From assembly GCA_947087265.1 (NCBI GenBank), contig CAMUBY010000001.1:62001-126000 (forward strand): 64,000 bases of DNA, written 5' to 3'. A program made the position numbers and the translations under genes. This DNA is from an uncultured Clostridia bacterium (GTDB taxonomy: Bacteria > Bacillota > Clostridia > Christensenellales > Borkfalkiaceae). Position 1 is the stretch's first letter, and every line of letters starts with the position of its first letter. The notes beneath the pieces are model-generated. The model was not told where the DNA came from, did not search any database, and was given only the letters and a program-made list of their open reading frames with translations. Positions 18,869-43,225 of the stretch are shown piece by piece.

Positions 18869-19330
18869 ATGAACGAATTTATGAAAGAGGCAATCGAAGA
18901 AGCGCGCAAGGGCATTCTTGCGGATGAAGGCGGTCCCTTCGGCAGCGTCATCGTAAAAGACGGAGAAATCGTGGGGCGCGGTCACAATCAGGTCGTACTC
19001 GAAAACGACTGTACCTGTCACGGTGAAATGCAGGCAATCCGTGCCGCGAGCAAAACGCTCGGCACGTTCGACCTTTCGGGCTGCGAAATTTATACGACGG
19101 GCGAACCCTGCCCCATGTGCCTTTCCGCCTGCCTATGGGCGAATATCGGAAAAGTATATTACGGCTGTACGCTTGCGGATAACGAGGCAATCGGTTTCCG
19201 CGATAAAAAGTTCGATTCGCTCTTCGGCGGCAGAGAAAAATTCGGTCTTTTCTTACACGAAACGGACAGAGCGGAATGTTTGGATTTGTTTGAAGAATAC
19301 CGTCGCTTAAAGAATAAAACGAACTATTAA
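18869..19330 (+). CDS. Guanine deaminase-like cytidine-deaminase-fold enzyme
   Basis: A 153-residue zinc deaminase. The zinc site is complete: His51-x-Glu53 in CHGEMQAIR (usually HAE, here HGE) and the PCPMC pair Cys81/Cys84. Length, the GGPFGSVIVKDG opening and the C-terminal EYRRLK tail match the Bacillus-type guanine deaminase and general nucleoside/base deaminase family rather than tRNA adenosine deaminase (TadA), though TadA-like activity cannot be excluded. GGGAGG precedes the ATG. The next gene (TIR-like) begins 24 nt downstream. Confidence 0.85.
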   Translation: MNEFMKEAIEEARKGILADEGGPFGSVIVKDGEIVGRGHNQVVLENDCTCHGEMQAIRAASKTLGTFDLSGCEIYTTGEPCPMCLSACLWANIGKVYYGCTLADNEAIGFRDKKFDSLFGGREKFGLFLHETDRAECLDLFEEYRRLKNKTNY

Positions 19331-19354
19331 AATACAAAAGAGCGGAAAAGAGAT

Positions 19355-20641
19355 ATGGAAAATATTTTTATCGGGTGGGGCGGCAACAAGCCGCTTGCGG
19401 ACAAGTTGGAACTACTCATCGACGGCAACGGCTATAACGGAATTGTCGGCGGGGGCTTGCCGACCGATATGCACGTCGGCAAGCAGGTACTCACGCAGAT
19501 TGATAAATGTTCGAGAGCGATTTTGCTGTTTGAAAAAATAGACGGCGCTTTTCGGGAAAACTTACTCTACGAACAGGGATATATCAGTGCGCGTATGCAG
19601 GTGAAGAACGTGCACGTCTTTATGATAGACTGCAAACTAAAAGATTTGCCGAGCGACTTATCGGGCATCTGGGGCACGGAAATCGTGCGCGGAGAAAAGA
19701 GCGACGAGGAACTCGCGGCGGAAATTTATGCGGAGTTTGAAAAGACGCATCACAAGGAAAAACGCAGATGTTATTTCGACCTTATCAACGAATGGCCGAC
19801 CGTCTGTCAGTTGTTTTCCGATTCTGCGCTTGCGCTCACCGAACGTCAGATTGCCGAAAATACAGTGCTCGGCTGCCTTGCCGCCTACTATTACAGCGAC
19901 ATTAAATTTCTCAACCAGTGTATCGATAAAGTTGAGGGGTCCGAAGAGCTGGAACTCATCATGCAGTTTGCAGAAACCTATAACAACGTTTTTTTGAAGA
20001 GCAACAACATGGCAACTTGTATTGACGTCACATTCTTCTCGCGGGCAGTGGAGGTGTTCGAGCGCACCTTGCAGCGCAAAATCGATAAGACGGACAACTT
20101 CCAACTGATTATCGATATGCTCTGTTACGACGTGTACGGGCTTTCTTGTCTGTTGTATCTGAAAAACGAAACGGTGGAGGACGAGGAGGCGAACTACTGC
20201 CGCGAGCAGGCGCGCGAATGCTTCACGAAAACGATAGCGCTTTCGGAAGAACTTGAAAAAGCGCTGCCCAACGACCCCTGTTTAATCAAACTCATCCGCG
20301 CCTATATTTATAACGACGCCGCGCATCTGTTTCTGAACCACTATAACGACGAAGCGCAGTTTTTGAAATACCTCGAACTTTCGGTGAAGGCACGGCGCGA
20401 ACTCTACCTCGATTTCCATTCCCATTACCCGGGCAACAGTTTCCTCGAATCGAAATTAGAGCAGGAGTATTACGTTGCGCTCTGCGAACAGTGCCTGTAT
20501 ATGCCGAACGATTTCAACCGCAAAATGCAACTTTCGCGCATCCGCCAGCGCTACCGCGACTGGAAGGAAGAGGCAAAGTATACGTTCTCGCTTTTGAACC
20601 GCCTCGAAAATAATCTGAGCAAAATTGACGCCCAGAAATAA
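19355..20641 (+). CDS. TIR-like (CAP12-type) protein with a helical C-terminus
   Basis: A 428-residue protein. Residues 1-125 look like the bacterial TIR-like domain of the Pfam 'predicted nucleotide-binding' family (CAP12/TIR-STING type): it opens IFIGWGG, has a central ILLFEKIDGAFREN, and carries the candidate catalytic Glu73 in ENLLYEQGYISARM, followed by a VHVFMID strand. Related domains hydrolyse NAD+ in anti-phage signalling. Residues 130-428 are helical, TPR-like in look, and may sense or oligomerise. No STING, cyclase or SIR2 partner is nearby; the neighbours are a deaminase and a toroid protein in the same orientation. An NADase role is inference. Confidence 0.6.
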   Translation: MENIFIGWGGNKPLADKLELLIDGNGYNGIVGGGLPTDMHVGKQVLTQIDKCSRAILLFEKIDGAFRENLLYEQGYISARMQVKNVHVFMIDCKLKDLPSDLSGIWGTEIVRGEKSDEELAAEIYAEFEKTHHKEKRRCYFDLINEWPTVCQLFSDSALALTERQIAENTVLGCLAAYYYSDIKFLNQCIDKVEGSEELELIMQFAETYNNVFLKSNNMATCIDVTFFSRAVEVFERTLQRKIDKTDNFQLIIDMLCYDVYGLSCLLYLKNETVEDEEANYCREQARECFTKTIALSEELEKALPNDPCLIKLIRAYIYNDAAHLFLNHYNDEAQFLKYLELSVKARRELYLDFHSHYPGNSFLESKLEQEYYVALCEQCLYMPNDFNRKMQLSRIRQRYRDWKEEAKYTFSLLNRLENNLSKIDAQK

Positions 20642-23515: not shown

Positions 23516-24856
23516 GTGTTGACCTCGTTTGCGCTTTACAGAGTGCTTTTTTCGCTTGAAATTTTTGTTGCGGAATTTTTGCTTGCGTTCCGCCTGAAAA
23601 AAAGGAGTATTTTTATTCTGCGGTTTTCGCTTTGCGTAATCGCAGTATCTGTACTTGCGTTCTTTTTCCCGATACCCGTTGAAAATATGTGGTATACCTC
23701 TTTTGCGTTTTTCACGCTTTTCGCATTGACGGTGCCTTGTATTAAAGTCTGTTTCAAGGAACGCTGGGTCAACATTTTCTTTGTTGCGATTGCGGCATAT
23801 ACCCTCCAACATCTTGCATACGAGGTAACGAGTCTTGCGCTTTCTGCAATTTCCTGGGGCACCAGCCCGATATTAGGCGTTTATTCCAACGAAACAATCC
23901 ACTTAAAGTTGGATACTGCAACTGTTCTTAACACGCTGATTTATCTGCTGTGCTACGTTGTTTCGTTCTGGCTTGCATTCTTTATTTTCGGAAAGAAATT
24001 AACGAAAGGTCGGGAGATGAAGGTAAAGAGCGTTTCCCTGTTAGCCATAATCAGCGTGGGGCTCGTCGTCGATATCGTTCTCAATTCCGTTCTCATATAC
24101 GGCGAGCACTCCCCCGTCAACGTAGCGGTAGAAAGCGTATACAGTATTCTTTGCTGTATGCTGCTTCTTTACGCGCAGTTCGCGCTTTTGGAAACGACGG
24201 AATTAAGGGATAAAATCGCGGTTGTGGAGCAACTGCTCCGACAGGGTGAGGAACAGTACGCGGTTTCAAAAGAAAATATCGATATTATCAATATGAAGTG
24301 CCACGATATGCGCCACCAAATCAGAGAAATCGGCAAGAACAACAGCCTGCCGCAGGAAGCCATTCGGGAGATTGAGGACGCCATACGGCTATATGATACC
24401 GGCATCAAGACGGGAAACGAAGTGCTCGATATTATTCTCACGGAAAAGAGTCTGCACTGCCACAGCAACGGCATAACGCTTTCCTGTATCGCAGACGGCG
24501 CGCTTTTGGGTTTTATGGACGACGTAGATTTGTATTCGCTCTTCGGCAACGCCTTGGACAATGCAATTGAAGCGGTGATGAAGATAGAGGACAGCGAGAA
24601 GAGGATAATCAGCGTGAAGCTCCATTCTGTGGGCGGATTGATTACGCTGAACATCAAAAATTCGTTTACGGGACAAATCAATTTCAATACGGAAGGGCTG
24701 CCCGAAACTTCCAAGGCGGACAAATACTATCACGGATTCGGCATGAAAAGTATTTCGTATATCGTTGCGAAATACGGCGGAGATTTCGCCGTCGTAGTGA
24801 AGGACGGAACTTTTAACGTGAATATTTTATTGCCGAATAAACAAAATACGAAATAA
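23516..24856 (+). CDS. AgrC-like GHKL sensor histidine kinase, system 1
   Basis: A 446-residue protein. Six or so transmembrane helices occupy residues 1-225, then a coiled dimerisation helix with the phosphoacceptor His in MKCHDMRHQI, followed by a GHKL ATPase domain (N-box FGNALDNAIEAV, G-box HGFGMKSI). The architecture matches AgrC/ComD/VirS-type kinases that sense small extracellular ligands, often peptides; no peptide precursor or AgrB-like processing protein is seen nearby. Translation starts at GTG 23516 inside the G-rich ribosome-binding region. The adjacent GH3 gene suggests it controls glycan use. Confidence 0.9.
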   Translation: MLTSFALYRVLFSLEIFVAEFLLAFRLKKRSIFILRFSLCVIAVSVLAFFFPIPVENMWYTSFAFFTLFALTVPCIKVCFKERWVNIFFVAIAAYTLQHLAYEVTSLALSAISWGTSPILGVYSNETIHLKLDTATVLNTLIYLLCYVVSFWLAFFIFGKKLTKGREMKVKSVSLLAIISVGLVVDIVLNSVLIYGEHSPVNVAVESVYSILCCMLLLYAQFALLETTELRDKIAVVEQLLRQGEEQYAVSKENIDIINMKCHDMRHQIREIGKNNSLPQEAIREIEDAIRLYDTGIKTGNEVLDIILTEKSLHCHSNGITLSCIADGALLGFMDDVDLYSLFGNALDNAIEAVMKIEDSEKRIISVKLHSVGGLITLNIKNSFTGQINFNTEGLPETSKADKYYHGFGMKSISYIVAKYGGDFAVVVKDGTFNVNILLPNKQNTK

Positions 24857-24951
24857 AATGTCGCTTTTAAGCGATACGTCTTGTCAAAATCAAACCTTTA
24901 TTGTAATTTATCAACAGAGTAATCCTCGAATAAATCAGATTAAGGGATATT

Positions 24952-34807: not shown

Positions 34808-34836
34808 TTGCAAAAAGAATCGGAATATGATATAAT
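34808..34836 (+). promoter_or_regulatory. Sigma-A promoter of the second two-component operon
   Basis: TTGCAA (34808-34813), 17-bp spacer, TATAAT (34831-34836). The predicted leader is about 78 nt and contains the inverted repeats at 34843-34883. Confidence 0.75.
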
Positions 34837-34842
34837 AATTTT

Positions 34843-34883
34843 GCGGGCGCGCCCGCAGTTGCTTATCTTCGATAAGCAACTGC
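34843..34883 (+). promoter_or_regulatory. Overlapping palindromes in the leader of two-component system 2
   Basis: A 14-bp perfect palindrome GCGGGCGCGCCCGC (34843-34856) overlaps by 2 bp a perfect 13-bp hairpin, arms GCAGTTGCTTATC (34855-34867) and GATAAGCAACTGC (34871-34883) with a TTC loop. No T run follows, so it is not a simple terminator. The two structures would compete for the GC at 34855-34856. Confidence 0.65.
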
Positions 34884-34920
34884 AAAAACATTTCATTGTT
34901 TTATAAACGGAGAGGGGGAT

Positions 34921-35637
34921 ATGAGGAATATTGCAATCGTAGAAGATGAAGACGAAGCCGCATCTGTTCTGAACGGTTATATTGAAAAATTTTCCGCAGA
35001 AACGGGTCAGGAATTCCACATAAAAAGATATCGCGATGCGGTGCAATTTCTTGCCGACAATAAGGTGAAATATGCCGTTGTCTTTATGGATATCCAAATG
35101 CCTCACCGTGACGGAATGAGCGCGGCGGTCGAACTTCGTCAGTTCGATAAAACCGTTTCCATTATTTTTATTACCAACCTCATTCAATACGCGCAAAAGG
35201 GCTATGAGGTGGACGCCGTGGCGTATATCCTCAAACCCGTTCAGTACTACGATTTTGCGCTCAAATTCCGCAAAGCGCTCGATATTTATGTGATGAACGA
35301 AAAACAGGACCTCACGCTGAGTACCTCCGAGGGGGCTTGCCGTATCTCCACGGACAGACTCATGTATGTGGAAATCGTAAGGCACCGCCTGTATTATCAC
35401 ATGGTCGACAGCGTTATCGAACGCACGGGCGTTCTTTCGCAGGTGGAAGCAGAACTCAAACAATTCGGATTTTTGCGTTGCAATCAATGCTATCTCGTTA
35501 ACCCGCGTTTTATTGTCAGCGTAAAGGGCTTGACGGTGCAGTTGGGCTCGGAATCGCTTACCATCAGCCGCCCGCGGAGAAAGGAATTTATGGCGAATCT
35601 TGCAAACTGGTATGCGGGTCTGGAGGGCAAAAAATGA
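34921..35637 (+). CDS. LytTR-family response regulator, system 2
   Basis: A 238-residue regulator with the same build as the one at 22799. The receiver has IVEDEDE, phosphoacceptor Asp57 (VFMDIQMPH) and Lys in LKPVQYYDF. The LytTR domain has LMYVEIVRHRLYYH and RCNQCYLVNPRF. AGAGGGGG precedes the ATG. Its stop overlaps the kinase start by 4 nt (ATGA), so they are translationally coupled. The two regulators are clearly paralogous, so their target sites are probably alike; the direct repeats upstream of 37103 and 42365 are the best candidates. Confidence 0.92.
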   Translation: MRNIAIVEDEDEAASVLNGYIEKFSAETGQEFHIKRYRDAVQFLADNKVKYAVVFMDIQMPHRDGMSAAVELRQFDKTVSIIFITNLIQYAQKGYEVDAVAYILKPVQYYDFALKFRKALDIYVMNEKQDLTLSTSEGACRISTDRLMYVEIVRHRLYYHMVDSVIERTGVLSQVEAELKQFGFLRCNQCYLVNPRFIVSVKGLTVQLGSESLTISRPRRKEFMANLANWYAGLEGKK

Positions 35638-36986
35638 CCTATTGGCAGACGTACGGGTATATTATCGTAGAATTTTTGTTTGAATATTCCGTGTTCGCCG
35701 TACTGTTTCTGTATAAACTCAACCGTCGGAAACTCTTCCCTCTGCGAGCCGTTCTTTCTTTGATTGCAGTTTTTGCAATCGGGCTTCCCGTGGCGTATTT
35801 TTACAAACTGTTCGGGGAGACGATTTGGGGGCGTATTCTCGTCTATCTGTTTCTTTTTGCGGTATTTACGCTTTTCACGAAGCTGTGTTTTTGCGAAAGT
35901 TTTCTGACGTTGCTTTTTTGTTGCAGTATGGCGTATGCGATGCAGAATTTCGCCTATAAGGTGTATCTCATTATCTGGACAAGCGGCGAACAATTGCGTC
36001 TGTACGACGGCTGGGGAACTCATTTCAATCTCTATTACCGCATCATGTACTATCTGATTTTTGCCGCTTGCGTTGTAGGCGCGTGGTTTTTGTTCATTCG
36101 CAGAATTACGGCAAAAATGGAAAGCCGCAAACTCAATTTCCGAATTCTTTTGATTTCGCTTTTTATTCTGGGTATCACTATATTGTTGTGTTCGGTGGAG
36201 GATTTATTCTTTGCCAAACTCAGCGTGATGCGCGAAAACCGCTTCGATAATTATATCTATTTCGTATTGCGGCAAACGGGCAACGCCTTTTCCGTGGTGT
36301 GCTGCATCATCGTATTTTTGCTTGCCTCCAAAGCAATCGTCGAAAACAAGTTGTTGCAAGAGGTAGAATATCTGAAACACACGATACGTCAGGGCGAAAG
36401 GCAGTATCAGATGTCCAAAGACAGCATCGAACTCATCAATATAAAGTGTCACGACATTAAATATAAGTTGGACTCGCTCATGGCGCAGGGCGCCATGACG
36501 CCCGAGGCGGTTAAGAATCTGCGCGACAGTATTTCCATTTACGATTCTAAAACGGAAACGGGGAATCAACTTCTCAACGTACTCATCACGGAAAAAAGCC
36601 TGTATTGCGAACAGAACGGCATCAACCTTTCCTGCATGATTGACGGCGCGAAACTCGGTTTTATGGAAGCGGGCGATTTATACTGTCTGTTCGGAAATCT
36701 TATCGACAACGCGCTCGAAGCCGTGAAAAAAATTGCGGAAAAAGAGCGGCGAATCATCAATTTAATGGTAAAGTCGAAGGACAATTTACTGCTCGTACAG
36801 GAAGAAAACTATTTCAACGGAAACCTCGACTTTGAAGACGGATTGCCCGTAACCACCAAGGAGGATAAGAGCGGTCACGGCTTCGGTATGCGCAGCCTGC
36901 GCTTGATTGTCAAGAAGTACGGTGGAGAAATGACGACCTCCGTCACGGACGATATTTTCCACCTGAATATCATTTTCAGCCGTTAA
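35634..36986 (+). CDS. AgrC-like GHKL sensor histidine kinase, system 2
   Basis: A 450-residue paralogue of the kinase at 23516: about six N-terminal transmembrane helices, phosphoacceptor His in IKCHDIKYKL, N-box FGNLIDNALEAV and G-box GHGFGMRSL. The membrane part is not obviously similar to the first kinase, so the signals may differ. It is followed by a regulated promoter and the second GH3 gene. A hairpin just after the stop (37031-37057) may terminate the operon while also lying within the next promoter. Confidence 0.9.
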   Translation: MTYWQTYGYIIVEFLFEYSVFAVLFLYKLNRRKLFPLRAVLSLIAVFAIGLPVAYFYKLFGETIWGRILVYLFLFAVFTLFTKLCFCESFLTLLFCCSMAYAMQNFAYKVYLIIWTSGEQLRLYDGWGTHFNLYYRIMYYLIFAACVVGAWFLFIRRITAKMESRKLNFRILLISLFILGITILLCSVEDLFFAKLSVMRENRFDNYIYFVLRQTGNAFSVVCCIIVFLLASKAIVENKLLQEVEYLKHTIRQGERQYQMSKDSIELINIKCHDIKYKLDSLMAQGAMTPEAVKNLRDSISIYDSKTETGNQLLNVLITEKSLYCEQNGINLSCMIDGAKLGFMEAGDLYCLFGNLIDNALEAVKKIAEKERRIINLMVKSKDNLLLVQEENYFNGNLDFEDGLPVTTKEDKSGHGFGMRSLRLIVKKYGGEMTTSVTDDIFHLNIIFSR

Positions 36987-37001: not shown

Positions 37002-37075
37002 ACAATTTGTGAAATAATATTACAGTTTAAGAAACGCGTCTTGAATAGGCGCGTTTCATTTTTTATAATGTCGAA
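37002..37075 (+). promoter_or_regulatory. LytTR-like direct repeats, promoter and Spo0A-like box before the second GH3 gene
   Basis: Direct repeats ACAATTTGTG (37002-37011) and ACAGTTTAAG (37022-37031) are 20 bp apart. The second ends 9 bp before TTGAAT (37041-37046), which is 17 bp from TATAAT (37064-37069). TGTCGAA (37069-37075), a perfect 0A-box core, overlaps the last base of the -10. Repeats and spacing are reproduced at 42277-42343. Confidence 0.7.
37031..37063 (+). terminator. Hairpin after two-component system 2
   Basis: GAAACGCG and CGCGTTTC form an 8-bp stem with an 11-nt loop, then ATTTTTT. It resembles a terminator for the kinase transcript but overlaps the promoter boxes of the downstream GH3 gene. 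Confidence 0.55.
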
Positions 37076-37102
37076 AAGCAAAATGAAAGAAGGAGTGTTG
37101 AA

Positions 37103-40100
37103 ATGAAGAAAGGAATGTCAATCAAAAAATCCATTGCAATCTTCGCGCCCTGCATGACGGCGCTTGTTGCAATCATGATTGCACTTATTATTGTTGCGGG
37201 CATTTTCTCGGAAACCATCAGTTTGTGGTTATACGGCAGAGCGCAGAATTCCGACGCCAAGACGCTGTCGGCAGGCACGGCGCTGTGCGAAGACATTGTG
37301 GAAGAGGGAATTGTGCTTCTGAAAAACGAAGAAGACAAAAACGGGAATGCCGCTTTACCTCTTACAAAAGAAGAAATTTCCAAGGTGAACGTATTCGGTT
37401 GGGCGGCTTACGACTGGATGACGATGGCATACGGTTCGGGTTATTCGAATACGAAACTTACGAAAATGAAACTTTTTCCTGCTTTGAAAGCGGCGGGAAT
37501 CGAATACAACGAAACGCTTTACAAAATGTATAAAGATTTCTACTCCGCGGATACAAGCGTTTACAGCGCACACGACGAAGAGTATCGCGGCGGCGTAGAA
37601 TTTAACAAGATTGAAAAAAACTTTATTTTGCGCGAACCCGATAAATCGCATTATACGGCGGCGGTTTTGGAAGAAGCGGCGTTATTTTCAGATGTTGCGC
37701 TCGTCGTCATCGGCAGAACGGGCGGCGAAAGCAACGACTTGCGTTTATATCAGGAAAAACAGAAGCAGTCGAACCGTTCCGACAGTACGACAACGGACAA
37801 CAGCCGTACCTATCTCGAACTTTCCACCGAAGAGGAGCAAATGATTGAAGCGGCGGCAACGGCTTGCAGTAAGGTCATCGTGGTTCTCAATACCGCAAAC
37901 GTCATGGAGACGGGCTTTATCGACGATGAAAAAATCGACGCGGCGCTCCACGTCGGCGTTACTGGTCTTACGGGCGTGAACGGACTCATCAACGTGCTCC
38001 GCGGCGAAAAAGAGGTTCCCGTTCTCGACGACAACGGTGAGGAAAAGAAAGACGCGAACGGCGAAACCGTTACCGAAACGGTAAAAGTGAGCCCTTCGGG
38101 CAGGACCGCCGATACCTACGCTTATGATATTTTCACCGCTCCTTCGTCCGTGAACGCAGGGAAAGAGGGCGCGAGAAAATACGACGGTTTTACGGGTACG
38201 GGCAAAGGCTACTATGATGCGTACATCGATTATTACGAAGGCATTTACGTCGGCTACAAGTGGTACGAAACCGCAGACGCGGAACATTATTGGGATGCGG
38301 AAGAATTCGGCGGTTACGAGAAAGTCGTACAGTATCCGTTCGGTTACGGACTTTCCTACACAACCTTTGAATGGACGGTAAAGGAAGTAAAAGTAGACGG
38401 CAAAAAGCAGACGGAAGGCGAACTTCCGAAAAACGGCAAAATCGAAATTACGGTTGAGGTAAAAAATACGGGCGACTACCCCGCCATGGACGTAGTCGAG
38501 TTGTATTATACACCCCAATACGTGAAAGGCGGAATCGAAAAGGCGCACGTGAATCTTGCCGCTTTCGCAAAGACGGGAGTCATCGAGCCTAAAGAAAGCA
38601 AAACCGTAACGCTGGAAATGACCGTACAGAGCATGGCGTCCTACGACTGTTACGACGCAAACAATAACACGCATACCGGATACGAGCTCGACGCGGGCGA
38701 TTATTATCTGCGCCTCATGAAAAACGCGCACGAGAACGGCAATATGGCGGAAGGCTCCGAGGCGGTCATGCATTATACCGTACCGGAAGGCGGTTACAAT
38801 TACGACACCGACGAAGCGACAGGCGAAAAAGTAGAAAACCGCTTCACGAACAAGGACGGCAAGGGTAACGACCAGACAATCGATAATGCCGATTTGGACG
38901 GCAGCCACGAAACGACCCCCGTTACCTATCTTTCGAGAAAAGATTTTGCGGGAACTTTCCCCGAAAAGATACTCAGAAGCAGAAGCGAAGCGGCGTACAA
39001 GGTTGCAAGCGCTACGGAACCCACCGAGGCGCAATTACAGGCAACGGGCTATTTCGGTATCGACAAGAATATCAACGGCGAAGATATGGGCATGACCCTG
39101 GCAGATATGATGCCTCAGAAAACGGGCGACGAATATACCCTGCGGGAATGGAAAGACGACGACTGGGAAACGCTCATTTACCAGGTTACCGTCGGCGAAA
39201 TGAAAACGGTCATCAAAGACGGTTACTTCAAAACGGCGGCAATTAAGAGTATCGAAAAACCCGAGTACGTCGATTTGGACGGTCCTCTCGGATTGAACAC
39301 CCGCGTAACGGGCACGACGCAGTGCGAATTTGTGGCATACCCCAGCGCGACGGTGCTTGCGCAGACCTGGGATACCGCGCTTGCCTATGCAATGGGACTG
39401 AGCGTGGGTAACGAAGCAAAATCCATGCAGGGCTTAAGAGGCTGGTACGCACCCGGTGCGAACATTCACCGCAATCCTTTCTGCGGCAGAAACGGCGAGT
39501 ATTATTCGGAGGACGGCGTTCTTTCGGGCAATATGGCGGCGGGCGCGGTGAGCGGCGCGAAAGATATGGGCGTTTACTCTTATGTAAAACACTTTGTGGT
39601 AAACGAAAGCGAAACGTTCCGTGAAGGCTTATACACCTTCCTCACCGAGCAGACGTTGCGCGAAATTTATCTGAAACCCTTTGAAATTATGATAAAAGAT
39701 GGCGGCGGCAACGCGCTCATGACGAGCATGAACCGTTTGGGCAGAGTTTGGTCGGGCGCGAACTACGGGCTTTGCACCGAGATTTTAAGAAACGAATGGG
39801 GTTTCCGCGGTACGCTTGTAACCGACTGGCTGGATACGAATAAAGGCGACTATATGCCAGCTTATAAAGGAATCTGGGCAGGCAACGATTTGTGGCTGAA
39901 TAATACAAACGCCGATAGCAGCGTCGGAAATCTGTTAAACAAAATACCGGACGCGCAGATGATAGCGCTTGGTCAGAAGGTTGTCAAAAACGTACTCTGG
40001 ACGCTGATTGATACCGAAAACGCAAAAGTTACTTACGACCCCACTGCAACCACAGGCATCGGCGAAGGCGCGCAATACAACCATACCTGGTACTGGTACG

Positions 40101-40267
40101 TCGCTCTTGTTGAGATTGTGCTTGCGGCAGGCGTCGGCGTCATGGCGTTCTTCCTTGTAAGAAATATTATCAGAGGCAGAAAGGCTTCGGTAACTGAGGA
40201 AGTTGCGGCGGAGGAGGTTGCGGAAAATTCCGAATCCGTAACCGACGAAACTCCGAAGGACGAATGA
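37103..40267 (+). CDS. Membrane-anchored GH3 beta-glucosidase with inverted domain order (second copy)
   Basis: A 1054-residue protein. One N-terminal transmembrane helix (about 10-35) is followed by the GH3 C-domain (about 50-420, EEGIVLLKNE, IGRTGGE), a fibronectin-III-like domain (about 430-545, FGYGLSYT onward) and then the TIM-barrel N-domain (about 700-965) with YVKHFVVNESE and candidate nucleophile Asp908 in LVTDW. A C-terminal helix (WYWYVALVEIVLAAGVGVMAFFL) and an acidic cytoplasmic tail complete it. The order is permuted as in the first GH3, but the CBM-like tail is absent. It is controlled by the direct-repeat promoter just upstream. Confidence 0.9.
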   Translation: MKKGMSIKKSIAIFAPCMTALVAIMIALIIVAGIFSETISLWLYGRAQNSDAKTLSAGTALCEDIVEEGIVLLKNEEDKNGNAALPLTKEEISKVNVFGWAAYDWMTMAYGSGYSNTKLTKMKLFPALKAAGIEYNETLYKMYKDFYSADTSVYSAHDEEYRGGVEFNKIEKNFILREPDKSHYTAAVLEEAALFSDVALVVIGRTGGESNDLRLYQEKQKQSNRSDSTTTDNSRTYLELSTEEEQMIEAAATACSKVIVVLNTANVMETGFIDDEKIDAALHVGVTGLTGVNGLINVLRGEKEVPVLDDNGEEKKDANGETVTETVKVSPSGRTADTYAYDIFTAPSSVNAGKEGARKYDGFTGTGKGYYDAYIDYYEGIYVGYKWYETADAEHYWDAEEFGGYEKVVQYPFGYGLSYTTFEWTVKEVKVDGKKQTEGELPKNGKIEITVEVKNTGDYPAMDVVELYYTPQYVKGGIEKAHVNLAAFAKTGVIEPKESKTVTLEMTVQSMASYDCYDANNNTHTGYELDAGDYYLRLMKNAHENGNMAEGSEAVMHYTVPEGGYNYDTDEATGEKVENRFTNKDGKGNDQTIDNADLDGSHETTPVTYLSRKDFAGTFPEKILRSRSEAAYKVASATEPTEAQLQATGYFGIDKNINGEDMGMTLADMMPQKTGDEYTLREWKDDDWETLIYQVTVGEMKTVIKDGYFKTAAIKSIEKPEYVDLDGPLGLNTRVTGTTQCEFVAYPSATVLAQTWDTALAYAMGLSVGNEAKSMQGLRGWYAPGANIHRNPFCGRNGEYYSEDGVLSGNMAAGAVSGAKDMGVYSYVKHFVVNESETFREGLYTFLTEQTLREIYLKPFEIMIKDGGGNALMTSMNRLGRVWSGANYGLCTEILRNEWGFRGTLVTDWLDTNKGDYMPAYKGIWAGNDLWLNNTNADSSVGNLLNKIPDAQMIALGQKVVKNVLWTLIDTENAKVTYDPTATTGIGEGAQYNHTWYWYVALVEIVLAAGVGVMAFFLVRNIIRGRKASVTEEVAAEEVAENSESVTDETPKDE

Positions 40268-40321
40268 TAAGCGTTTGTTTATCGGTAAAGTGAAAAATTT
40301 TTTTAGGAGGAAAGCTAATAT

Positions 40322-42214
40322 ATGAAACTCAAAAAGCACATCATGTCTGCGTTGGTGGCTGCGTTATCACTGATTATGGTGTTAGCGTTCGTGGCCTGCG
40401 GAGGCGACAAGGACCCCAAGGTTACCGCAATTGCGCTTAACCAGCCGACGGTGGAAATTGAAACCGGAACGACGTCAAAACTTACGGTAACCGCAACGTA
40501 TGACGACGAAACCAGCGGCGAACTGAAAGCGGGCGACGTTACCTGGGCAAGCGACAACGAAAGCGTTGCTACCGTAACGAGAGGTATTGTTTCGGGCAAA
40601 ACGAAAGGTACGGCGAAAATTACCGCAACCTACGGCGAATTCTCGGCAACCTGCAACGTCACCGTAAATTTGGTTGAAGTAATTATTTCGGGTTACGAAC
40701 TCAACGACGACGACAAGGTTGAACTCCAAATCGATGGCGAATTAATGCTTAGCGCAAAAGTCAACAAGAACGGCGAAGAACTCGACGGCGAAACGGTTGT
40801 ATGGTCTACCAGCGCTCCCGGCATCGTATCCGTTGCGAACGGCGTGATTAAGGGTATCAACCCCGGCGAAGCAACCATTACGGCAACCCGTGCAAACGGC
40901 ACGCAGTCCGCTTCTATCACCGTAGTCGTTCCCGAAATCATTGGCTCTGCACAGTTGGGCTACAATGAACAGAACAAGACGCTTGCCGATACCTGGGGCT
41001 TCTGGAACGACCAGGGCTACAACTGGTCGAATACGACGGTTTACAGTAAGTATACGGAACCCTATGCGGAAACCGAGCCCGAAACAGGCTACGAGCGTAT
41101 CGGTGCGGGAAAGATGAATATTACTTTCTCGGTAGACAGTTACGGCGGCAGTATGGCGCCCGGTCCCCACGATGCTGCGATTCAGCTCTTTTACCGCAGC
41201 AGCAAAGAGAACGGCGGCAGACTCGAAGCCAACCACAACTATGAGATAAAACTTAAAGTTCTCTCGAACACCGCAGGTACAATCGTCGTGAACCCGTTTG
41301 ACGATATCGACGGTCGTTACGGTATGGAAGAAGATAATGAAGAAGCTCACGAGGCGTTACTTGAAGCAAACGTAGAAAAAGAAATCACCGTTCAGTTCAG
41401 ACACGGCGACAGCGGCGCTATCTACGCACAGGGCAAGTACACCAACGTAGAATCTGCTATCAATATTTTGCTCGGCTTGCTTTCCGCACCCGTTAAAGAT
41501 GATTCCGAGAGCAACGTTGTAAAAGTTTCTGTGTACGACGTACGCGTGAAAGACTTGGGCGAATCTACTTATAAGTGGGTGGACGATGAAACCGAACTCG
41601 AAGGCTATACGCCGCCTCCCGCAGTACTTCCCGATTTGAGCGGAGTTGATTCCATAGCCATTGATAGTGATAGTATTACCGCACCCGACGAAACCCATTA
41701 CGCAATTACTGCAGGAACAGACAATAAGTCTTACGACGTTGTTTATACGGACGTTGCAGGCGGTAACTATCAAAACGTTGCCATTAATATTCCCCAATCA
41801 GCGAATGCGGCGGAAAACAACACATTTGTAGTTACCATCGCAAATAACGGTTCGGCTGATATCGAACTGCGTTTCGACGTTGCCGGTGCAACAGCGATTG
41901 AAAATGGACAGAACAGTGCTTCGAAAGATTGCGCAATCAGTTCGGCTGCTTCGGTAGGTGTTCCCAATACCGATTCTGTTTGGGACGGCACGACCATCTC
42001 GATTAAGGCAGGCGAAACGACCACGCTCTATATCACTTACGATGCAACGACCGGCCGCGGCGCGCCCACGCAGATACTCGTCTATTTTGAAACGCACTAT
42101 TGGGCAAACAGCAACGATAACCCTGCTCACGTAGAAGCAAATTACAGCGGCAACGTAACGCTCAGCGAGTTCAAGTTTGCGAACGTTGTAAGCGAAGAAG
42201 TCGGCGAAGAGTAA
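40322..42214 (+). CDS. Lipoprotein with two Big_2 Ig-like domains and a carbohydrate-binding-like C-terminus
   Basis: A 630-residue lipoprotein (lipobox ending FVAC). Residues about 33-120 and 122-205 are bacterial Ig-like group 2 domains, with the typical WASDNESVATV...G-ATITAT pattern. Residues about 210-420 look like a CBM4/9-type beta-sandwich (WGFWNDQGYNWS, NHNYEIKLKVLS), and another beta-rich domain follows. No hydrolase motif. AGGAGG lies before the ATG, 54 nt after the second GH3 gene, so the two are probably co-transcribed. Likely a surface glycan-binding protein. Confidence 0.82.
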   Translation: MKLKKHIMSALVAALSLIMVLAFVACGGDKDPKVTAIALNQPTVEIETGTTSKLTVTATYDDETSGELKAGDVTWASDNESVATVTRGIVSGKTKGTAKITATYGEFSATCNVTVNLVEVIISGYELNDDDKVELQIDGELMLSAKVNKNGEELDGETVVWSTSAPGIVSVANGVIKGINPGEATITATRANGTQSASITVVVPEIIGSAQLGYNEQNKTLADTWGFWNDQGYNWSNTTVYSKYTEPYAETEPETGYERIGAGKMNITFSVDSYGGSMAPGPHDAAIQLFYRSSKENGGRLEANHNYEIKLKVLSNTAGTIVVNPFDDIDGRYGMEEDNEEAHEALLEANVEKEITVQFRHGDSGAIYAQGKYTNVESAINILLGLLSAPVKDDSESNVVKVSVYDVRVKDLGESTYKWVDDETELEGYTPPPAVLPDLSGVDSIAIDSDSITAPDETHYAITAGTDNKSYDVVYTDVAGGNYQNVAINIPQSANAAENNTFVVTIANNGSADIELRFDVAGATAIENGQNSASKDCAISSAASVGVPNTDSVWDGTTISIKAGETTTLYITYDATTGRGAPTQILVYFETHYWANSNDNPAHVEANYSGNVTLSEFKFANVVSEEVGEE

Positions 42215-42245
42215 GAGAATTCACGGCTTGCTAATTTTCAAAAAG

Positions 42246-42276
42246 GGTGGCGGCGTTAATAGCCGTCACTTTTTTT
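42246..42276 (+). terminator. Intrinsic terminator
   Basis: GTGGCGGC-N7-GCCGTCAC (one G-T pair), then a run of seven T residues, after the Ig-like lipoprotein gene. Confidence 0.85.
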
Positions 42277-42343
42277 GCAGTTTATGTAAAAATCGTGCAA
42301 TTTAAGAAACGGCTATTGACGGAATTCGGTTTTATAATATAAT
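42277..42343 (+). promoter_or_regulatory. LytTR-like direct repeats and promoter of the GH16 gene
   Basis: GCAGTTTATG (42277-42286) and GCAATTTAAG (42297-42306) are 20 bp apart. The second ends 9 bp before TTGACG (42316-42321), then a 16-bp spacer and TATAAT (42338-42343). Geometry and the TTTAAGAAACG stretch match 37022-37034. Confidence 0.7.
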
Positions 42344-42364: not shown

Positions 42365-43225
42365 ATGAAAAAATGGTTAAAAGGCTTGGCAATTTTAACG
42401 GTTGGTGCAATATTTTTTGCGGCTGCGGGGTGTTCGATATTTGAACCTGCGGAAACGGACCCTCCTGCGGACACCGACCCGCCTGTGAGTACGGACCCGC
42501 CAACGGATACCGACCCTCCTATAAGTACGGACCCGCCCGTGGGGCAAACCTTCAAACCGCACGAGTCTGCGGCGGGGATTCCCGATAGGCTCACCTTGGA
42601 AAGTGAAAAGATAGACCGTTTTTCACAGGGCGGTTCTTCCGAATTTACCTGGGCGGACGGATATTCCAACGGCGGCATGTTCAACTGTACCTGGCGCAGA
42701 AGCAGTGCAAAAATTCAAAACGGCGTCATGAGCATGTCAGTTTCCAAAGAAGGGAAGGGCTATGCGGGCGCGGAACACCGTTCTAAAAATAAATTTTCAT
42801 ACGGCTTTTATTCGGTGTGCATGAAGGCGGCAGACTGTTCGGGTGTCATTTCCTCGTTTTTCACTTATACGAATCAACCTGTTTGGGACGAAATCGATAT
42901 CGAGTTTCTCGGCAAGGATATGACGAGTGTGCAGTTTAACTATTATACGAACGGGGTAGGGGGACACGAATTTGTGTTCGAGCTTGGCTTTGACGCATCT
43001 GAGGAGTTTCACGAATACGCATTTGATTACAGGCAAAACAGTATTACCTGGTATATAGACGGCAAGGCGGTTTATCGGGCTACCGAAAATCTTCCCTCGC
43101 ACGATATGCAGATTATGATGAATGTTTGGAACTGCATCGGCATTGACGAATGGAGCGGTGCGCTCGATACCGCGGCGCTTCCCGCAACGGCGCAATATCA
43201 ATGGTTTGCGTATACTCCGAATTGA
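42365..43225 (+). CDS. GH16 lichenase-type beta-glucanase lipoprotein
   Basis: A 286-residue secreted lipoprotein (lipobox ending AAGC) with a Thr-Asp-Pro-Pro repeat linker (about residues 33-60) and a GH16 domain. The catalytic motif is WDEIDIEF with Glu176, Asp178 and Glu180, the short ExDxE form found in licheninases (beta-1,3-1,4-glucanases). YEH-like and WYIDGKAVYR segments support the fold. It should cleave mixed-linkage or beta-1,3 glucans into oligosaccharides for the GH3 enzymes. Monocistronic under the direct-repeat promoter. Confidence 0.9.
   Translation: MKKWLKGLAILTVGAIFFAAAGCSIFEPAETDPPADTDPPVSTDPPTDTDPPISTDPPVGQTFKPHESAAGIPDRLTLESEKIDRFSQGGSSEFTWADGYSNGGMFNCTWRRSSAKIQNGVMSMSVSKEGKGYAGAEHRSKNKFSYGFYSVCMKAADCSGVISSFFTYTNQPVWDEIDIEFLGKDMTSVQFNYYTNGVGGHEFVFELGFDASEEFHEYAFDYRQNSITWYIDGKAVYRATENLPSHDMQIMMNVWNCIGIDEWSGALDTAALPATAQYQWFAYTPN

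Follow-up and report, generated by a model that had tools for sequence, protein, structure and literature searches.

Paired LytTR-type repeats and a predicted terminator-promoter fusion in a glucan-degradation locus of gut Clostridia

A GH3 gene and a GH16 gene of an uncultured Clostridia bacterium are preceded by the same pair of short direct repeats, and the question raised by this locus is whether one regulator reads both promoters and, if so, which. An earlier note on the window, by which we mean the whole stretch of 64,000 nucleotides analysed here, proposed that one or both of two LytTR regulators encoded in it control these promoters. To our knowledge, almost nothing has been described of regulation in this group of gut Clostridia.

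Two promoters with the same upstream layout

The LytTR response regulator RR2 (34921-35637, + strand) consists of a receiver domain (PF00072) and a LytTR domain, and its domains and the co-occurrence of its orthologs with the repeats make it the proposed activator. It shares an operon with its cognate sensor, the GHKL-type histidine kinase HK2 (35634-36986, +; PF14501). Downstream lie the GH3 gene (37103-40267, +; PF00933, PF01915, PF14310), whose product has an N-terminal membrane segment and a permuted domain order with the GH3 C-domain before the N-domain, and a gene for a Big_2-domain protein (40322-42214, +) that is probably co-transcribed with it. These are followed by the GH16 gene (42365-43225, +; PF00722), encoding a protein with a lipoprotein-like N-terminus. 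The second LytTR regulator, 22769, and the GHKL kinase 23516 precede another GH3 gene, 24952. Rfam returned two tRNAs only in the window and no known RNA family at the promoters. Further upstream, a possible anti-phage defence pair (18869-20641) is formed by a deaminase gene and, after it, a gene whose product has a CAP12/Pycsar-type TIR domain.

Site A (37002-37031), upstream of the GH3 gene (ATG at 37103), is composed of the half-sites ACAATTTGTG (37002-37011, +), which is kept in orthologous loci, and ACAGTTTAAG (37022-37031, +). They are separated by 10 bp and followed by the 9-bp gap AAACGCGTC, which leads to the -35 box of promoter A (37041-37069, +), a sigma-A-type promoter with TTGAAT at 37041-37046, a 17-bp spacer and TATAAT at 37064-37069. 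Site B (42277-42306), upstream of the GH16 gene (ATG at 42365), has the half-sites GCAGTTTATG (42277-42286, +) and GCAATTTAAG (42297-42306, +), again 10 bp apart, and the 9-bp gap AAACGGCTA leads to promoter B (42316-42343, +), with TTGACG at 42316-42321, a 16-bp spacer and TATAAT at 42338-42343. Both pairs have the form RCARTTTRWG with a start-to-start distance of 20 bp. The earlier note had placed this layout before 37103 and 42365 correctly to the base, including the end of the second repeat 9 bp before the -35 box at both sites; its two promoter descriptions also hold, except that the predicted terminator overlapping promoter A (37031-37057) was missed. It had further remarked that AAACG follows the second repeat in both cases. 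Half of this is explained by a longer repeat unit of about 13 bp, RCARTYTRNGnAA, derived from 43 non-redundant sites, with the AA also following repeat 1 in related sites; the remainder at site A is the 5' arm of the terminator stem.

In the genome of 1,426,681 bp the exact pair is present at sites A and B only, two occurrences against a chance expectation from composition of about 0.0008; the reversed control pattern has no exact match there. Allowing up to 3 mismatches yields 8 further matches versus 7 for the control pattern, and these are background because they are no more frequent than the control, so that a wider regulon in this genome was rejected. The earlier note had named frequent occurrence at random genomic positions as the outcome that would count against it, and the genome search did not produce that outcome. 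Weight-matrix scores of the two sites are 43.8 and 40.7, and no other stretch of the window scores above 6.2 except one at 14.6, which is an echo of site A shifted by 20 bp. The promoter of the RR2-HK2 operon (TTGCAA, 17 bp, TATAAT; 34808-34836, +) has no LytTR site, the best matrix score upstream of 34921 being -5.7, and autoregulation of this operon was rejected on that ground. Two adjacent hairpins, TGCGGGCGCGCCCGCA and AGTTGCTTATCTTCGATAAGCAACT, lie between its -10 box and start codon (34838-34885).

Inheritance of the sites with RR2

Orthologs of RR2, defined by at least 60% identity, are present in 22 of the 103 genomes of the genus. A pattern search with up to 2 mismatches detected the pair in 20 of these 22 genomes and in 3 of the 81 others (Fisher p 3.7e-16, which is too small since the genomes of one genus are not independent). 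Each of the three outliers has a match at 2 mismatches, where the reversed control also yields stray matches. A weight matrix, trained on part of the loci later found with it, places a site before GH3 and/or GH16 in all 22 genomes with an RR2 ortholog. The genes occur in two orders, RR-HK-site-GH3-BIG-site-GH16 as in the window (order 1) and site-GH3-RR-HK-site-GH16-GH16 (order 2), and the site remains with each target promoter though the neighbours differ. Natural controls are provided by genomes without an RR2 ortholog that encode GH16 and GH3 orthologs (G065 and G040) or GH3 orthologs (G062 and G097): no pattern match was found in any of the four, and the matrix search gave no match at the GH16 locus of either G065 or G040. 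In the family as a whole (398 genomes), allowing up to 1 mismatch gave 23 matches versus 2 for the control. Sites are also present in gut MAGs of Candidatus Borkfalkia, Coproplasma and Protoclostridium, and in most named relatives the same element lies between HK2 and GH16. C2, A3 and A23 are the same in all 43 non-redundant sites, G10, C22 and G30 are each found in 42, and the second repeat ends 9 bp before -35 throughout the relatives. Judged by these comparisons, the two-repeat layout is conserved by descent.

Two other explanations of this distribution have to be weighed. The repeats could have been kept merely because the neighbouring genes are recently related, with no regulatory role, and all of the sites do lie in related loci. 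However, identity among the target proteins is only about 60%, and the sequence that separates and flanks the repeats is variable, in contrast to the half-sites, their 20-bp step and the spacing of 9 bp to -35, which stay constant; the site moreover survives a rearrangement of the genes and is not found without RR2, and we regard a lack of function as hardly credible. Control by 22769, alone or with 34921, would be suggested by its position about 14 kb away and by its own GHKL kinase and GH3 gene. Yet relatives of 22769 in the genus reach at most 54% identity, the nearest of them belonging to G059, a genome that lacks both the motif and a 34921 ortholog; the recognition loop reads FSLCNRC in 22769 versus FLRCNQC in RR2; and the GH3 promoter of the 22769 locus has a motif-matrix score of -6. 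We consider a role of 22769 at sites A and B very improbable, and it was rejected as the regulator on its distribution in the genus. The proposal that one or both regulators act here is thereby narrowed. The part concerning 34921 is strongly supported, since the sites co-occur with its ortholog, precede the same two targets in either gene order and do not accompany targets in genomes that lack the regulator; the part concerning 22769 gains no support, as no ortholog exceeds 54% identity in the genus and G059 lacks the site.

RR2 is the best candidate because 22769 has no close ortholog in these genomes and a differing recognition loop, and we conclude from the genome comparison that RR2 is the likely regulator of sites A and B. 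A LytTR site is expected to have a cognate regulator that is encoded and co-inherited with it, and 34921 is such a regulator. RR2 has an invariant D57, and its LytTR domain matches the AgrA LytTR-DNA structure 3bs1 (E 7e-4). Compared with the canonical FhRhHRS motif, its signature FLRCNQC keeps the F, the R and the overall alignment, and HRS is replaced by NQC. The AgrA signature is FFRCHNS, of which HNS is the DNA-contacting loop (PMC4227749). With NQC in place of HNS, the exact DNA contacts and recognition of RR2 may differ from those of AgrA. Co-occurrence alone is no proof that RR2 contacts the sites, the two being genetically linked, and other LytTR regulators of the genome could cross-bind.

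Regulator 22769 may have a site of its own. Before the GH3 gene 24952, at 24846-24886, ACAAAATACG is followed by CGCTTTTAAG, 9 bp before TTGTCA, the second repeat sitting in a small hairpin. This is a single instance, and it was not confirmed in relatives at 39-54% identity.

The hairpin at promoter A

Ahead of the -10 box of promoter A lies a predicted intrinsic terminator hairpin of the 34921-36986 operon (37031-37057, +), with an 11-bp stem GAAACGCGTCT/AGGCGCGTTTC followed by ATTTTTT. The stem has 11 pairs, 6 of them GC, and a predicted fold of -17.4 kcal/mol. The -35 box of promoter A falls within the loop and top pair, and the T-run leads into the -10 region. Of 50 sites at kinase-to-target junctions, 44 have a predicted fold in which six or more of the 9 bases preceding -35 are paired. 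The kinase stop codon is commonly inside or just after the first repeat, so that about 75 bp accommodate the gene end, the putative activator site, the predicted terminator and the promoter. From sequence, then, the junction is a fusion of a putative LytTR site, a predicted terminator and a promoter. The examined loci contain 637 terminator-like hairpins. A -35-like loop together with a -10 box at promoter spacing is present in 39, almost all of them LytTR sites.

An inverted repeat that covers the -35 box is in an obvious position for a repressor, and it might be an operator acting in DNA rather than a terminator; a hairpin is also present at a few target promoters not directly after a kinase gene (L138 GH3, L148 and L149). 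The variation across relatives is unlike that of an operator, as the stem letters vary freely with pairing kept, up to 5 pair types being seen per position. When the arms were exchanged among relatives, whose loops differ in length, mean pairing fell from 9.0 of 10 to 7.7, and none of 2000 permutations reached the observed value. A T-run is usual, with at least 4 T in 8 bases after 36 of the 44 junction hairpins, and sites preceded by the end of a codirectional gene have the stronger hairpins (mean z -3.0 versus -1.1). Site B has no such hairpin and lies behind a separate terminator of the GH3 operon (42239-42277, +), directly before its first repeat. An operator thus appears quite unlikely, if somewhat less so than a role of 22769, and we favour the terminator.

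Searches of open-licence papers, mostly at the level of titles and abstracts, turned up no described natural example of an activator site next to a terminator loop that holds the -35 box. Paralogous LytTR-GHKL-GH3 loci with different repeats (L193 at about 3681, +; L156 at about 2970, +) also have the -35 box in a terminator loop, so that the fusion is not confined to the 34921 lineage.

Proposed mechanism and relation to known systems

We propose, with a probability of roughly 0.86, that the repeat pairs are RR2 dimer sites that switch on the GH3-Big_2 unit and GH16, site A doubling as the terminator of the RR2-HK2 operon. Sequence comparison supplies the sites, their fixed geometry, their conservation, the co-occurrence with RR2 and the covarying hairpin; binding, activation, signal and termination are what the model adds. 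HK2 would sense a signal, probably a breakdown product of beta-glucan, and a phosphorylated RR2 dimer would bind two half-sites that are two helical turns apart and contact RNA polymerase from just upstream of -35. Two units would be activated, GH3 with the Big_2 protein from site A and GH16 from site B. An intrinsic terminator for RR2-HK2 would be contained in the bases of site A too, and its hairpin would end the regulator transcripts and keep RR2-HK2 transcription out of the target operon, making expression of the targets dependent on the switch. In gene order 2, the site upstream of GH3 precedes RR2-HK2, and read-through could consequently give positive feedback; the window differs in that the promoter from which its regulator operon is read is a separate one and has no site.

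A more speculative extension, which we think improbable though less so than the alternatives weighed above, is that polymerase ending the regulator operon is released on the target promoter beside the bound activator and restarts without leaving the DNA. Polymerase that stays on DNA after termination and restarts at nearby promoters has been seen in vitro, according to the parts of two reports drawn on here (PMC6978322, PMC6978380). If such a relay existed, the regulator genes would feed polymerase to their own target, and a conserved natural element built for polymerase restart would be new.

The geometry is of a known LytTR kind. Sites A and B fall within the ranges for LytTR direct repeats, with units of 9-10 bp at a step of 20-22 bp, 4-11 bp before -35. 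At promoters of the AgrA/ComE type, such as S. aureus agr P2/P3 (PMC4227749), a pair of direct repeats likewise lies immediately before -35 at a step of about two helical turns and is bound by a response regulator of the LytTR family, a dimer partnered by a GHKL-type kinase; at sites A and B such binding is predicted. Those promoters differ in their targets, which are quorum-sensing and virulence genes rather than extracellular glycan-degrading enzymes; in a stretched -35/-10 spacing, which is near-optimal here at 16-17 bp; in a recognition loop HNS instead of NQC; and in lacking the fusion to a terminator seen at promoter A. In the LRS (HdrRM/BrsRM), 9-bp direct repeats with 11-13 bp spacers lie 4-11 bp upstream of -35 (PMC6193735). 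The earlier note was concerned that a 20-bp period is shorter than the usual 21-22 bp, but this is no problem, because S. mutans SMU_1070c has the same step, its 9-bp LytTR repeats with an 11-bp spacer giving 20 bp start to start (PMC6193735, Table 2). LRS regulators have no receiver, are partnered by a membrane inhibitor and autoregulate, whereas RR2 has a receiver and a GHKL kinase and its own operon is not preceded by a site; this locus is therefore not an LRS.

In the passages of PMC5320581 drawn on here, a LytTR regulator in a Gram-positive glycan locus was listed earlier, in Ros-7 of Roseburia intestinalis, where a LytTR response regulator and kinase are similarly linked to glycoside hydrolase genes. 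That locus is predicted for arabinoxylan and has transporters and other GH families, and those passages describe no binding site for its regulator. The hairpin at site A resembles Rho-independent terminators in general in its GC-rich stem and T-run at an operon end; it differs in that the -35 hexamer of the following promoter is located in its loop, in a constant position relative to the predicted activator site.

The repeats that raised the question are real, the interpretation is supported for 34921, and the predicted terminator-promoter fusion adds interest to an otherwise familiar geometry. A candidate regulator, a motif and a putative two-unit regulon can now be assigned to a glucan-degradation locus of gut Clostridia known mostly from MAGs. 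The motif could help to predict which sugar loci of the family are under LytTR control, and the conserved fusion would be a compact natural example for testing the coupling of termination and reinitiation.

Judged from gene neighbourhoods, LytTR-GHKL pairs seem to be a recurrent means of controlling GH3 loci in this group. The four closest LytTR regulators in this genome (22769-33880; G000 contigs C2 and C3) are all within about 15 kb of GH3 genes, and the order RR-HK-GH3 is found in most of 20 related loci of the genus. In G099, the GH16 gene that has an RR2-type site is found on a separate contig (L122 6258, -), where it adjoins a different LytTR regulator.
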